Of a stretch of 64,000 nucleotides of DNA, positions 22,835 through 27,474 are shown piece after piece. Each line of letters opens with the position of its first letter. Position 1 is the stretch's first letter. This DNA comes from Bauldia litoralis. Lineage in GTDB: Bacteria > Pseudomonadota > Alphaproteobacteria > Rhizobiales > Kaistiaceae. The notes beneath the pieces are model-generated. The model searched no databases, was not told where the DNA came from, and saw nothing but the letters and a program-made list of their open reading frames with translations. A program made the translations under genes and the position numbers. Location: contig CAMCWB010000011.1 of NCBI GenBank assembly GCA_945882315.1, forward strand, positions 1 through 64,000, written 5' to 3'.

Positions 22835-25375
22835 ATGTCCTTCCAGCACTACCTTCGCCCCTTGACTATAGGGACCTTGATCGTCGCTTGGGCGCACCCT
22901 GCCGGCGGGCAGGCCGTTCAGAAGCCGGCCGATGGCCCGACCGCAGCGGCGGTTGCCAATATGCCGGTCGACATTCTTCCGCAGATCATTCAGGCGCGCT
23001 TTCCTGAGCAGGTCATCGCCCAACTCATGGTCACGTTTCGTCTCGCGGATCGCGATCGTGACGGCCTCGGCCGTGCGGATATCGAGCGGCTTGAACAAAA
23101 AGAGGCCGTGGAGAGGCGGGCTCATCAAATCAGCCGCTTGCTGCGCAACGATCTGGACGGCGACGGACAGGTCAGCGAGGACGAAATTTTGGGCGCGGCC
23201 CGGATGGAGGGCGGTCCTGCTGGCGCTGTCGGGCAACGCGCGGCCGAGCAAGCCGTTAAAAATGCGATGCGGTCCGACAAGGACGGAAACCGCGTCATCA
23301 CCTATGCGGAAATGCTGGCCCCTTTGGCGGAAGAAGGGCGTTCGCGCATGACGGCCAATTTCCTGGCAACATTTTTCGAAGCAGACCCGAATGACGATGG
23401 CCGTCTCACGGACCAAGAGTTGGAAGGACTTATCAGAGGCTGGTTCGCGGCAATCGACGTGAATAGCAATCGCTATCTCGACGAGGCGGAACTGGCAGAG
23501 TTGGGGCGAGCGATTGCGCCCGCGGTGGGCCTGTCAGCGGGCGCGCCGGCTGCAAGGCCGCCCTTCGTCAAGAAGCCCGGACCCCGTGATGCGGAAGGTT
23601 GCCGTCTGCCGAAGGCTAGGCCGGAGGAACTCGTCTTCGCCGCGGGAGTATATGAGGCCGATGCGGTGTCGACGATTGCGCTGGCGGGCCCGCATGAAGT
23701 GACCAACGTCACGCGTGTGGTGATCGCTCCCGGAACCCAGCCTGTCTATCTTTTCCTGAACAGCTACGAATCGATGGTCTGGGAAGTCGCGGGTGCTGTC
23801 GACCGAGTCAGTCGCGCCATCGTGACGTCGTTCCGGACGATAGAAGGCGGCAACCCCGCTGCCGGCGTGGTCGGATTAGATCGCGCCCGGATCATCTTCG
23901 TGGACAGGAAGGCGTGTGATCTCAAGCAAGCTTCCGTCAGGCGGGTCGATGACAAGCGCAGTTTCGAACCCGACCCCAGCCTTGCCATCGGCCGCGTGCC
24001 GGACTCCACCGCGCTCTTTTACTCGGTCGAAGCGATAGAATTTCCGGCAGCAAAGCCTGTCGCGGGAACGAGATCGCAACCGCTTCCCGAGGGTTTCGAC
24101 AGCTATTTCTGGAAGCAGCACCTCCACTACACCCCGGCGGGCGTAAAACATTTCGAGCCCGAACAAATTATCTCTCCCGAGCCGCCCCAAATTTATGCCG
24201 TGCTGCCACAAATGGCCGGTGTGGCACAGCTCGTGGGCAATGGATCGATGGAATGGTCGGGTTGGAAATTGCGCATCGTCAAGTCCATTCCATCCGTGCC
24301 GGCGGGGATGAGCATCGGACTTCTCGCAAATCTTGTGATCGGGAAGGGTGTGACTCTGCCCAAAGGCAGCATCGGCGTCGGATGTCTGATCGAGGAGGTG
24401 ACCGGCAAATACGTATGTGAGCAGGAGAAGCCTGCTGTCAGGCCGGCCGGGGCGGCGGTCGTGCCCGCCGCGACGCCATCAGTCGCCCGGACGCAGCCGC
24501 CGCCCGATGACTACGGATGCAGCCTGCCAAAGGCTCAGCCCGAGGAAGTCGTGTTTGCAGCGGGAGTTTATGAGTCGGATGCTGTGTCGAGCATCGCGCT
24601 GGCGGGACAGGGCTCTGTGACGAATGCGACGCGTGTAGTTATCGCTCCGGGTGTCCGGCCCGTCTATCTTCTCCTGAACAGCTACGGGTCGATGGTCTGG
24701 GAAGTGACAGGAGCCGTCGGCCGCGTCAGCCGGGCGGTCGTGACATCGTTCACGACGACGCAAAGCGGCAAGCCTGCCGCCGGCGTGATTGGGCTGGATC
24801 GTGCCCGGATCAGCTTCGTTGAGAAGAAGACCTGCGGCCTGAGGCAGGCTTCCAACAGGCGGGCGGAGGACAAGCGCAGCTTAGAGCCCGATCTCAGCCA
24901 AGCCATTGGGCGGACTCCAGATGTGATCGCTCTATTTTACTCGGTCGAAGCAATCGAACCGCCTTCTGCAAAGCCGATCTTCGGCACCAAGTCGCAACCA
25001 GCTCCCAAAGGCTTCGACGATTTTCTTTGGAGCCAACATCTTCAGTACAGCCCGGCTGGCGTAAAGACGTTCGATGCCCGGCGGATTATCTCGCCGGAGC
25101 CTCCGCAGTCTTATGCCGTCCTGCCCCAACTTGCTGGAGCAGCTCAGTTGGTAGGTGATGGATCGATGAAATGGGTCGGCGAGGAACTGCGCATCTTCAA
25201 GCAAATTCCATCGATGCCCGCCGGGTTCGATAGTGCCCTGTTCCTTGATCTCGTGCGCGGCAAAAAAATGAAGTTACCCGCAGGAAATTTCGGTGTTGGG
25301 TGTTCGCTGGCGGAGGCGACCGGCCAATGGGTGTGTGAGACGGGCAAACCTTCGACGGCACCCTTAGAGCACTAG
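22835..25375 (+). CDS. Secreted EF-hand protein with duplicated ~280-residue domain
   Basis: 846 residues, not recognised as a named family. The N-terminus looks like a signal peptide ending near AWAHPAGGQA. Residues ~60-225 hold five EF-hand-like loops starting at Asp72, Asp106, Asp148, Asp184 and Asp208; the second (DLDGDGQVSEDE) is canonical. Then two tandem domains of about 280 residues follow (about 252-531 and 558-839). They share GCxLPKAxPEExVFAAGVYExDAVS, NSYxSMVWEV, IISPEPPQxYAVLPQ and a final V-C-E, with Cys near 256, 361, 517 and 528 conserved between copies. Linkers are Pro/Ala-rich. A calcium-binding envelope or extracellular protein is likely; its role is unknown. Confidence 0.75.
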   Translation: MSFQHYLRPLTIGTLIVAWAHPAGGQAVQKPADGPTAAAVANMPVDILPQIIQARFPEQVIAQLMVTFRLADRDRDGLGRADIERLEQKEAVERRAHQISRLLRNDLDGDGQVSEDEILGAARMEGGPAGAVGQRAAEQAVKNAMRSDKDGNRVITYAEMLAPLAEEGRSRMTANFLATFFEADPNDDGRLTDQELEGLIRGWFAAIDVNSNRYLDEAELAELGRAIAPAVGLSAGAPAARPPFVKKPGPRDAEGCRLPKARPEELVFAAGVYEADAVSTIALAGPHEVTNVTRVVIAPGTQPVYLFLNSYESMVWEVAGAVDRVSRAIVTSFRTIEGGNPAAGVVGLDRARIIFVDRKACDLKQASVRRVDDKRSFEPDPSLAIGRVPDSTALFYSVEAIEFPAAKPVAGTRSQPLPEGFDSYFWKQHLHYTPAGVKHFEPEQIISPEPPQIYAVLPQMAGVAQLVGNGSMEWSGWKLRIVKSIPSVPAGMSIGLLANLVIGKGVTLPKGSIGVGCLIEEVTGKYVCEQEKPAVRPAGAAVVPAATPSVARTQPPPDDYGCSLPKAQPEEVVFAAGVYESDAVSSIALAGQGSVTNATRVVIAPGVRPVYLLLNSYGSMVWEVTGAVGRVSRAVVTSFTTTQSGKPAAGVIGLDRARISFVEKKTCGLRQASNRRAEDKRSLEPDLSQAIGRTPDVIALFYSVEAIEPPSAKPIFGTKSQPAPKGFDDFLWSQHLQYSPAGVKTFDARRIISPEPPQSYAVLPQLAGAAQLVGDGSMKWVGEELRIFKQIPSMPAGFDSALFLDLVRGKKMKLPAGNFGVGCSLAEATGQWVCETGKPSTAPLEH

Positions 25376-25456: not shown

Positions 25457-26494
25457 ATGCCCGAAACCCAGATTCCCGTAACGGTCCTGACCGGCTATCT
25501 CGGCGCCGGCAAGACGACGCTGCTCAACCGAATCCTCTCGGAGAACCACGGCAAGCGCTATGCCGTCGTGGTCAATGAGTTCGGCGAGATCGGCATCGAC
25601 AACGATCTCATCGTCGAATCCGACGAGGAGATCTACGAGATGAACAATGGCTGCGTCTGCTGCACGGTGCGCGGCGACCTGATCCGCGTCGTCGAGGGGC
25701 TGATGAAGCGGCCCGGCGGCTTCGACGGCATTCTGGTCGAGACCACCGGCCTCGCCAATCCGGCGCCGGTCGCCCAGACCTTCTTCATGGATGACGACGT
25801 CAAGGCGCGGGCCAAGCTCGACGCCGTGATCACCGTCGCCGACGCCAAGCACCTCCTGCAGCGGCTCGAGGACGCACCAGAGGCCGAGGAGCAGATCGGC
25901 TTCGCCGACGTCATTCTCCTCAACAAGACCGACCTCGTGACGCCGGCCGAGCTTGCCGAGGTCGAGAGCCGAATCCGGTCGATCAACAGCCATGCGATCG
26001 TTTACCGGACGGAGCGCTGCGCGATCCCGCTCGACCGGGTGCTCGACCGCGGCGCCTTCGATCTCGACCGCATCCTGTCGCTCGACCCCGATTTCCTCGA
26101 CAGCGACAGCCATGAGCACGACCACCATGACCATGAGCATCACGATCATGACCACGATGACCATGATCACGGCCATGATCATCACCATCATCACCACGAC
26201 AATGCGGTGTCGAGCGTTTCGCTGCGTGGCGGTGCGCTCGATCCGGAGCTGATTTTTCCGTGGATTTCACGCATCACGCAGGAATTCGGGCCGGATATAT
26301 TGCGTCTGAAAGGTATTCTGGCGCTCAAGGACGATCCCGAGCGCTACGTCGTCCAGGGGGTTCACATGATCATCGAAGGCGACCACCAGCGCGCCTGGCG
26401 CGACGGCGAAACGCGCGACAGCCGTCTTGTCTTCATCGGACGCAAGCTCGATGAAACGATGCTGAAAACTGGCTTCGAAGCCTGCCTGGCCTGA
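25457..26494 (+). CDS. CobW/COG0523-family GTPase with His-rich metal site
   Basis: 345 residues. P-loop GYLGAGKT (13-20), the family CxCC metal motif (Cys66, Cys68, Cys69), ETTGLANP switch region and base-recognition NKTD (156-159) are present, followed by a His/Asp-rich stretch at residues 219-247 and a CobW C-terminal domain. These GTPases deliver metals, commonly zinc, or support cobalamin synthesis. No cobalamin gene is nearby, so a zinc chaperone is more likely. It is followed after five bases by a WD40 protein and is probably co-transcribed with it. Confidence 0.9.
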
Positions 26495-26499
26495 TCAGC

Positions 26500-27474
26500 A
26501 TGCCCGCCACACAGCAATTTCCGTTTGCGGCTTTCGTCGTCGAGGTTGCTTTTCTCGGCGACCACACAGTCTTCGCGCTCGGCGACGGATCGCTCCGCTG
26601 GGTCGAAGGCAATGTCGCCAAGAAGGCCGAAATCCACTCCGGCGCGATCCTTTCGGCGGCGCCGACCCGCGACGGCAAGGCGATGGTGACCGGCGGCGAT
26701 GACGGCAAGGTGGTGCTCGTCGATGCCAGCAGCGCCGTCAAGCGCATCGCTCTCGTCGAAAAGAAATGGATCGATCACGTCGCCACCGGGCCGGACGGTG
26801 CGGTGGCTTTCGCGGCCGGCCGACAGGTTTTCATCCGCCTCGGCGACGGCCGCGAAAAGGTTCTGGATCTCGAGCGGGCCGTCGGCGGGCTCGCCTTCGC
26901 CCCGAAGGGGACCCGACTCGCGGTCGCGAGCTACGACGCCGTCACCCTGTGGTGGGCCGGCACCGACGCCGAGCCCGTCCGCCTCGCCTGGAAGGGCGCT
27001 CATCTTGGCGTTGCCTTCTCGCCGGACAATCGCTTCGTGGTCTCGGCCATGCAGGAGAATGCCCTGCATGGCTGGCGCCTGGAAGACGGTAAGGACATGC
27101 GCATGTCGGGCTATCCGGCCAAGACGCGGTCGCTCGCCTGGACGCCGAAGGGCCGCTTCCTCGCCACCTCGGGCGCCAATTCGGCCGTGCTGTGGCCGTT
27201 CCAGTCCAAGAACGGGCCGATGGGCAAGCAGCCGACCCTGGTCGGCGGCCGGGCGGACATGCTGGCGACGCGGGTGGCCGCGCATCCCCGCGAGGAGAAA
27301 GTGGCGATCGGCTACCAGGACGGCATGGTCATCCTCGCCGATATCGGCGAGCGCAAGGAAGTGGCGCTGCGCAAGGCCGGGGGCGGACCGATCTCGGCGC
27401 TCGCCTTCGACAAGACCGGCAAGCGTCTCGCCTATGGCACCGAGGACGGCACCGGCGCCATCGTCACGCTATGA
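26500..27474 (+). CDS. WD40-repeat protein, partner of CobW-like GTPase
   Basis: 324 residues forming a predicted seven-bladed beta-propeller (repeated blades such as GAILSAAPTRDGKAMVTGGDDGKVVLVD and HLGVAFSPDNRFVVSAMQENALHGW). No signal peptide; cytoplasmic. It may provide a protein-interaction platform for the adjacent GTPase, which is inference. A strong hairpin follows the stop. Confidence 0.85.
   Translation: MPATQQFPFAAFVVEVAFLGDHTVFALGDGSLRWVEGNVAKKAEIHSGAILSAAPTRDGKAMVTGGDDGKVVLVDASSAVKRIALVEKKWIDHVATGPDGAVAFAAGRQVFIRLGDGREKVLDLERAVGGLAFAPKGTRLAVASYDAVTLWWAGTDAEPVRLAWKGAHLGVAFSPDNRFVVSAMQENALHGWRLEDGKDMRMSGYPAKTRSLAWTPKGRFLATSGANSAVLWPFQSKNGPMGKQPTLVGGRADMLATRVAAHPREEKVAIGYQDGMVILADIGERKEVALRKAGGGPISALAFDKTGKRLAYGTEDGTGAIVTL

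Follow-up and report, generated by a model that had tools for sequence, protein, structure and literature searches.

The gene studied here encodes an 846-aa protein, probably secreted as judged from its sequence, in which EF hands precede two tandem units, and the beta-sandwich module that opens each unit is probably a relative of the orphan domain of betaglycan and endoglin. Common ancestry of the module and the orphan domain is probable from their resemblance in comparisons of predicted models and of sequence profiles. The gene lies in a window of 64,000 nucleotides, that is, the whole stretch of DNA analyzed, and its features are as follows (window positions, strand, description, and basis).

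22835..25375, +, whole gene: 846 aa, with a probable signal peptide, EF hands, and two tandem units of ~285 residues
22835..22915, +, probable Sec signal peptide, residues 1-27: read from the sequence and a hydrophobicity heuristic
23048..23083, +, degenerate EF-hand loop, residues 72-83 (DRDRDGLGRADI): by eye, inside the EF-hand_7 match at 63-121
23150..23185, +, EF-hand loop, residues 106-117 (DLDGDGQVSEDE): pattern match and Pfam
23276..23311, +, EF-hand loop, residues 148-159 (DKDGNRVITYAE): pattern match
23384..23419, +, EF-hand loop, residues 184-195 (DPNDDGRLTDQE): pattern match; best EF-hand_6 stretch, 178-201
23456..23491, +, EF-hand loop, residues 208-219 (DVNSNRYLDEAE): pattern match
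23579..24430, +, unit 1, residues 249-532 (the stretch modeled): self-alignment and AlphaFold2 model
23618..24073, +, unit 1 orphan-domain-like beta-sandwich, residues 262-413 (model residues 14-165): PDB matches and profile tests
24074..24430, +, unit 1 C-terminal half, residues 414-532: common to the EF-hand relatives and several divergent ones
24443..24496, +, Pro/Ala-rich linker, residues 537-554: sequence
24497..25360, +, unit 2, residues 555-842: self-alignment and match to profile A5 (E, 2.3e-9)
24536..24991, +, unit 2 orphan-domain-like beta-sandwich, residues 568-719: located through the alignment of the two units
24992..25360, +, unit 2 C-terminal half, residues 720-842: located in the same way

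Fold of the unit

The initial annotation had seen in the unit an unknown 280-residue domain without a named family. The latter point was upheld: Pfam at E values of up to 10 gave no family in either unit, NCBIfam gave nothing above cutoff (unit 1 had a single match, at chance level, and unit 2 had none), and PHROGs had no match for three proteins. Pfam at E values of up to 1 over the 846 residues returned EF hands only, with no zona pellucida domain. The module is without a Pfam or NCBIfam name in all members scanned. In structure prediction and a fold search, the first half of the unit resembled the betaglycan/endoglin orphan domain, to which it is probably homologous.

The AlphaFold2 model of unit 1 (residues 249 to 532; 27 sequences) had a pLDDT of 88.8 and a pTM of 0.88. 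In the Foldseek comparison with the PDB, rows 1 to 6 were endoglin and betaglycan orphan domains (best E, 6.8e-3; the E values of both models described here are above 0.001). The eight top rows of VIA-align, run on the 178 chains preselected by Foldseek, were likewise all betaglycan or endoglin, with Z values of 8.7 to 7.5, against 2.4 for the next row, although according to the warning of the program a Z of 7 to 8 can be a common arrangement. These rows covered 101 to 121 residues at 2.4 to 3.5 Å, the best one (Z, 8.7) 106 residues at 2.5 Å.

The second model was that of L051, which belongs to a different family within the phylum and shares 17% identity with unit 1 across the module (pLDDT, 85.7; pTM, 0.69; alignment of 17 rows). 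Foldseek placed betaglycan in rows 1 to 7 (probability, 0.96 to 1.00) and endoglin in rows 8 and 9 (0.23 to 0.28), and the next, unrelated row had an E value of 2.2. Among 93 preselected chains, VIA-align gave eight rows with Z values of 8.6 to 7.1, which included matches to OD1 as well as OD2, and then dropped to 2.9; the best row spanned 116 residues at 3.5 Å (Z, 8.6). Endoglin itself reached a Z of 8.6 for unit 1 and 7.1 for L051. Both models, which are not fully independent since nine EF-hand-group sequences were in both alignments (L051 is 19 to 26% identical to those nine rows), picked betaglycan/endoglin first among 350,542 PDB chains, and both, as predicted, contain a beta-sandwich of the OD1/OD2 type. 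A library of viral folds gave no match at an E value of ≤0.001 (best, 0.29).

Sequence profile comparison with the orphan domain

Searches of the PDB with sequence profiles returned chance-level matches only, and betaglycan and endoglin were not found. The direct comparison was made with a vertebrate set of eight subdomain sequences, namely, OD1 and OD2 of betaglycan (three species) and OR1 and OR2 of endoglin. With hhalign, this set scored 39.4 (probability, 86) against 14 divergent bacterial members, 38.5 (probability, 87) against all 43 members, and 31.5 (probability, 53) against the 28-row EF-hand group, of which the window protein is part. For none of the three bacterial profiles did any of the 200 column shuffles or 200 block shuffles reach the real score; the top block shuffles were 25.5, 28.95, and 22.9, respectively, and for the divergent members, the column shuffles reached at most 18.3 and the reversed profile 12.0. 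With betaglycan alone, the probabilities were 86, 63, and 7.5 in the same order of profiles, and with endoglin alone they were weak (5.6, 6.9, and 0.6). In the profile alignment, the bacterial module and the orphan subdomain were colinear from the first Cys through the Trp.

The reverse comparison covered 2005 bacterial ORF segments, 56 of them from members (duplicates included). Rows 1 to 6 of the vertebrate profile were all members (four distinct proteins), and the AUC was 0.82 for the 56 member segments versus 597 other segments of ≥140 residues. The vertebrate HMM gave its best bacterial row an E value of 0.03 and the window protein one of 19. Taken singly, 13 of the 43 members scored higher against the vertebrate profile than the best of 250 random ORFs (22.1); these included both units of the window protein, with 25.5 for unit 1 and 22.8 for unit 2.

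All six betaglycan sequences exceeded every true decoy (n = 250) with the divergent bacterial profile, the weakest case being zebrafish OD2 (21.56, versus 21.49 for the top true decoy); the top-scoring "decoy" of each run was a cut piece of a member and hence no true decoy. The endoglin sequences were reached by 6 and 30 of the 250 decoys with this profile. The all-member profile placed five of the six betaglycan sequences above the decoys and the EF-hand-group profile only the three OD1 sequences, with 51 and 54 of 250 decoys reaching zebrafish and human OD2, respectively. Within the bacterial family, profile A5, made from six divergent sequences of which none came from the window or from A3, matched unit 2 at an E value of 2.3e-9 and unit 1 at 8.9e-7.

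The same data bear on convergence, under which the unit would be a beta-sandwich of common build with no ancestry shared with the orphan domain, and the protein an EF-hand protein with a private fold. Such an origin would agree with Foldseek E values above 0.001, the negative PDB profile searches, the weak profile results of endoglin, and those of the EF-hand group against OD2. It is nevertheless unlikely, given that two models with so little identity in the module both rank betaglycan and endoglin at the top, well clear of the other chains, that the sequence profile agrees and keeps the Cys-to-Trp order, and that members fill the first six rows when the vertebrate profile is run over bacterial ORFs. 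We retain kinship with the orphan domain as the preferred reading.

Two parts of the unit and architectures of the relatives

In four relatives (L065, L067, L069, and L072), the profile of divergent members matched the sandwich part only, and the 280-residue "domain" is therefore best read as a beta-sandwich of ~150 residues plus a separable C-terminal half rather than as the single domain of the initial description. No counterpart was found for the C-terminal half, though the fold searches barely probed it.

Over the 43 rows of the module, Cys 8 was conserved in 38, Cys 113 in 39, Trp 68 in 39, and Gly 99 in 38. Five rows were without one or both cysteines: four lacked both, and that of L028 starts after the first. 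The loss of both cysteines together in four members fits a disulfide bond between them. The best-conserved positions of the module seem structural, and inspection of the 43 rows by eye revealed no catalytic-looking constellation among them.

Among the relatives without a match to the EF-hand pattern, the module stands nearly alone after a hydrophobic leader in L038 and L049, while it follows an N-terminal region without a Pfam name in L051 and one with an LprI match under the cutoff in L053. In L052, also without a match to the EF-hand pattern, an LprI domain (Pfam PF07007; 31.4 bits, cutoff 22) precedes the module. L069 has EF hands and extra sequence C-terminal to the module, and L067 and L072 have extra sequence after the module with no Pfam match.

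Several individual loci are worth recording. The LprI-module frame of L052/L063 (G951:C1) is broken by a stop near the C-terminal part and continues in another short ORF. At L028 (1474-3063, −), a different N-terminal region without a Pfam match replaces the EF hands; by eye, it resembles a concanavalin-like domain. At L071 and L075 (G835:C240), three genes stand in a row, and each of them encodes a hydrophobic leader, an N-terminal region, and a single module, without a match to the EF-hand pattern. A genome of the class (L056, G735:C1:938500-958000) carries the module in five genes, of which a cluster of four lies within 13 kb; the clustered four have EF-hand-like loops by pattern and the fifth (L049) none. 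In G060 (Methylopila turkensis), an in-frame TAG inside the EF-hand region (L002, 2461-2463, −) interrupts a single-unit relative, unlike its counterpart in Methylopila jiangsuensis (L036), whose frame is open.

Tandem duplication

Self-alignment paired residues 250 to 537 with residues 556 to 843 without any gap, with 194 identities in 288 columns (67%) and a local score of 1007; the scores of 200 shuffles averaged 36 and did not exceed 65. The duplication had been called divergent but clear at the outset; that score leaves it clear, while at 67% identity its divergence was overstated. The four matched cysteines claimed for each copy were all found (256/361/517/528 and 562/667/823/834), with an exact offset of 306. 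At the nucleotide level, the copies were 70% identical, with a dN of 0.24, a dS of about 1.2, and a dN/dS ratio of 0.20. By the evidence of these sequences, the duplication is not fresh, and the change since then is mostly purifying. In a tree of the 43 module sequences, the window copies were sisters with a support of 100/100 (the bootstrap had not settled), which would make the duplication younger than the split from every sampled relative.

A scan of all retrieved segments with the module profile found two copies only in the window protein, L027, and L032; in the tree, the copies of the last two were placed apart from each other or had long branches. Apart from the window protein, the retrieved ORFs with EF-hand-like loops (by pattern) had one module each. 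The initial annotation had suggested looking at how often the domain occurs once, twice, or without EF hands, and all of these arrangements were found.

Calcium-dependent assembly or adhesion, also raised in the initial annotation, is possible. It would take the form of a Ca2+-dependent, self-assembling surface or matrix protein in which the units stack and the EF hands clip neighbors together. The combination of tandem units with calcium loops speaks for such a protein, as does the genome with five module genes, but the retrieved EF-hand relatives have a single unit, and we consider this form improbable.

Gene, probable export signal, and EF-hand region

The ORF proved real, at the place first assigned to it and with a product of 846 aa. 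The description of its product as an exported EF-hand protein also stood: the EF hands were found by Pfam above the gathering cutoffs (EF-hand_7, 46.8 bits, cutoff 30; EF-hand_1, 42.6 bits, cutoff 25.4; EF-hand_6, 32.7 bits, cutoff 25), and export is probable from the sequence and the heuristic, residues 1 to 27 containing the hydrophobic stretch LTIGTLIVAWA and then GQA before V, a modest signal. As for the five EF-hand-like loops originally counted, four are canonical by pattern (starts at residues 106, 148, 184, and 208), and the fifth (72 to 83) is degenerate, by eye, at EF positions 8 and 12. The NCBIfam XopAW model (NF041410) reached only 26.8 bits, against a cutoff of 120, over residues 95 to 198, covering EF hands only. 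A promoter scan found none, and terminator-like sites were at chance level. A CobW GTPase gene (25457-26494) and, directly after it, a WD40 beta-propeller gene (26500-27474) occupy window positions 25457-27474.

The last two EF loops (window 23384-23491) start exactly 24 residues apart, a spacing also seen in twelve relatives (L008, L009, L011, L012, L013, L018, L026, L041, L043, L046, L047, and L048).

Lanmodulin loops have a 24-residue spacing, a proline at loop position 2 is a mark of lanmodulin, and Methylopila are methylotrophs. A role in lanthanide or calcium handling, with EF hands that store or sense metal as in lanmodulin and units that only anchor or dimerize, would be in keeping with the spacing of the last two loops, with the relatives in Methylopila, and with the match of the NCBIfam lanmodulin model to residues 167 to 221 (E, 3.1e-4). 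However, this match scored 20.8 bits against a cutoff of 135, the proline is present in only one of the four canonical loops, and several relatives (L038, L049, L051, and L053) carry the module without a match to the EF-hand pattern. The odds are well against such a role.

Distribution and genomic context

Genome counts include the own genome unless stated otherwise. Matches were found in 3 of 61 relatives with the whole protein as the query, in 1 of 28 genomes of the family with unit 2, and in 28 of 397 genomes of the order with a three-sequence profile. A 27-sequence profile matched in 6/385 genomes of the class sample and 7/398 of the phylum sample, a profile of six divergent members in 10/299 genomes of the phylum, and an eight-member profile in 2/48 genomes of the order of G835 (own genome absent from the sample). 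The family of G060, taken as Methylopila turkensis, had a relative in 3 of 18 genomes. A first scan of named genome contigs confirmed no locus; three loci were confirmed by a second such scan, giving as named members two Methylopila and one Sphingomonas. Overall, the module was present in several dozen genomes of the samples searched, and because of the low match counts across the family, order, class, and phylum samples, we call the gene scattered.

The GC3 of the gene was 0.68, versus a mean of 0.82 (standard deviation, 0.07) for 46 picked ORFs of the window, a set that contains the gene itself and perhaps some wrong-frame picks. This value and the single occurrence among 28 genomes of the family suggest, but do not prove, horizontal movement of the gene. 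Plasmids had no match for the whole protein or for two divergent members, and phages had none for unit 2. Among the neighbors at eight loci (ORFs by eye), there was no partner common to the Methylopila pair and the other six, and the two Methylopila loci had the same neighbors as each other.

Proposed function and significance

The simplest account, in view of a probable export signal, EF hands, and the likely relatives of the module, is a Ca2+-stabilized binding protein. We give about an even chance to the whole of it, that is, to an exported, soluble, Ca2+-stabilized binding protein with tandem orphan-domain-like modules. The protein would be exported to the periplasm or to the outside, as its probable signal peptide suggests, and the first two conserved cysteines of each unit, which are conserved and lost jointly, would pair. 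Ca2+ would fill the EF-hand loops and stiffen that module. By analogy with the orphan domain, the two beta-sandwich modules might then form a binding surface for a protein or envelope ligand, to which the tandem duplication could add bivalency or avidity. This mechanism of binding is more tentative than the account as a whole.

On a broader scale, we think it likely that exported beta-sandwich binding modules form an old, scattered family in bacteria and that the orphan domain is the animal branch of this family. Bacteria would join these modules to EF hands, to LprI-like domains, and to other parts outside the cytoplasm, and tandem duplication would have occurred at least twice, once here and once in the betaglycan/endoglin line. 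The orphan domain binds TGF-beta/BMP ligands in two vertebrate coreceptors, endoglin and betaglycan. If true, the bacterial family would provide evolutionary context for it, a much larger set of sequences on which to base structural and mutational analyses, and small proteins for the study of the fold. On the bacterial side, it would name a module that is nameless in Pfam and NCBIfam among the members scanned.

Comparison with known systems

The orphan domain of betaglycan and endoglin binds growth factors (PMC11865472 and PMC3275592), and it has been described as being without similarity to other known proteins, in 2012 (PMC3275592) and again in a review of 2025 (PMC12492590). Among the papers listed in literature searches, judged by titles and abstract openings, none reported bacterial or prokaryotic relatives of it, and PMC10927120 does not mention betaglycan or endoglin.

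Among bacterial EF-hand proteins, CaBP of Caulobacter vibrioides (PMC13171946) differs in having, as its abstract opening gives it, 133 aa and three EF hands. EfhP of Pseudomonas aeruginosa (PMC9132961) is another bacterial EF-hand protein, and the abstract openings of both reports do not mention a tandem unit. Lanmodulin (NCBIfam NF053806) is approached by the subthreshold match and the loop spacing described above, but the score lies far below the model cutoff and the proline at loop position 2 is present in only one of four loops. The orphan region of endoglin (OR1 and OR2) was found by both fold searches, with weak support from sequence profiles when taken alone.

Betaglycan (TGFBR3) is among the closest parallels in the comparisons made here. 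In the predicted models, its OD1 and OD2 have the same beta-sandwich core as the bacterial module, and in the profile alignment its leading Cys and conserved Trp are in register with those of the module. Betaglycan is not known to have EF hands. The bacterial unit, unlike betaglycan, has an extra half of ~120 residues after each sandwich, and betaglycan includes a zona pellucida domain and is anchored in the membrane (PMC11865472). Betaglycan is also, like the window protein, built on a tandem pair of one subdomain, the zebrafish OD1 query matching OD2 with an i-Evalue of 3.2e-7.
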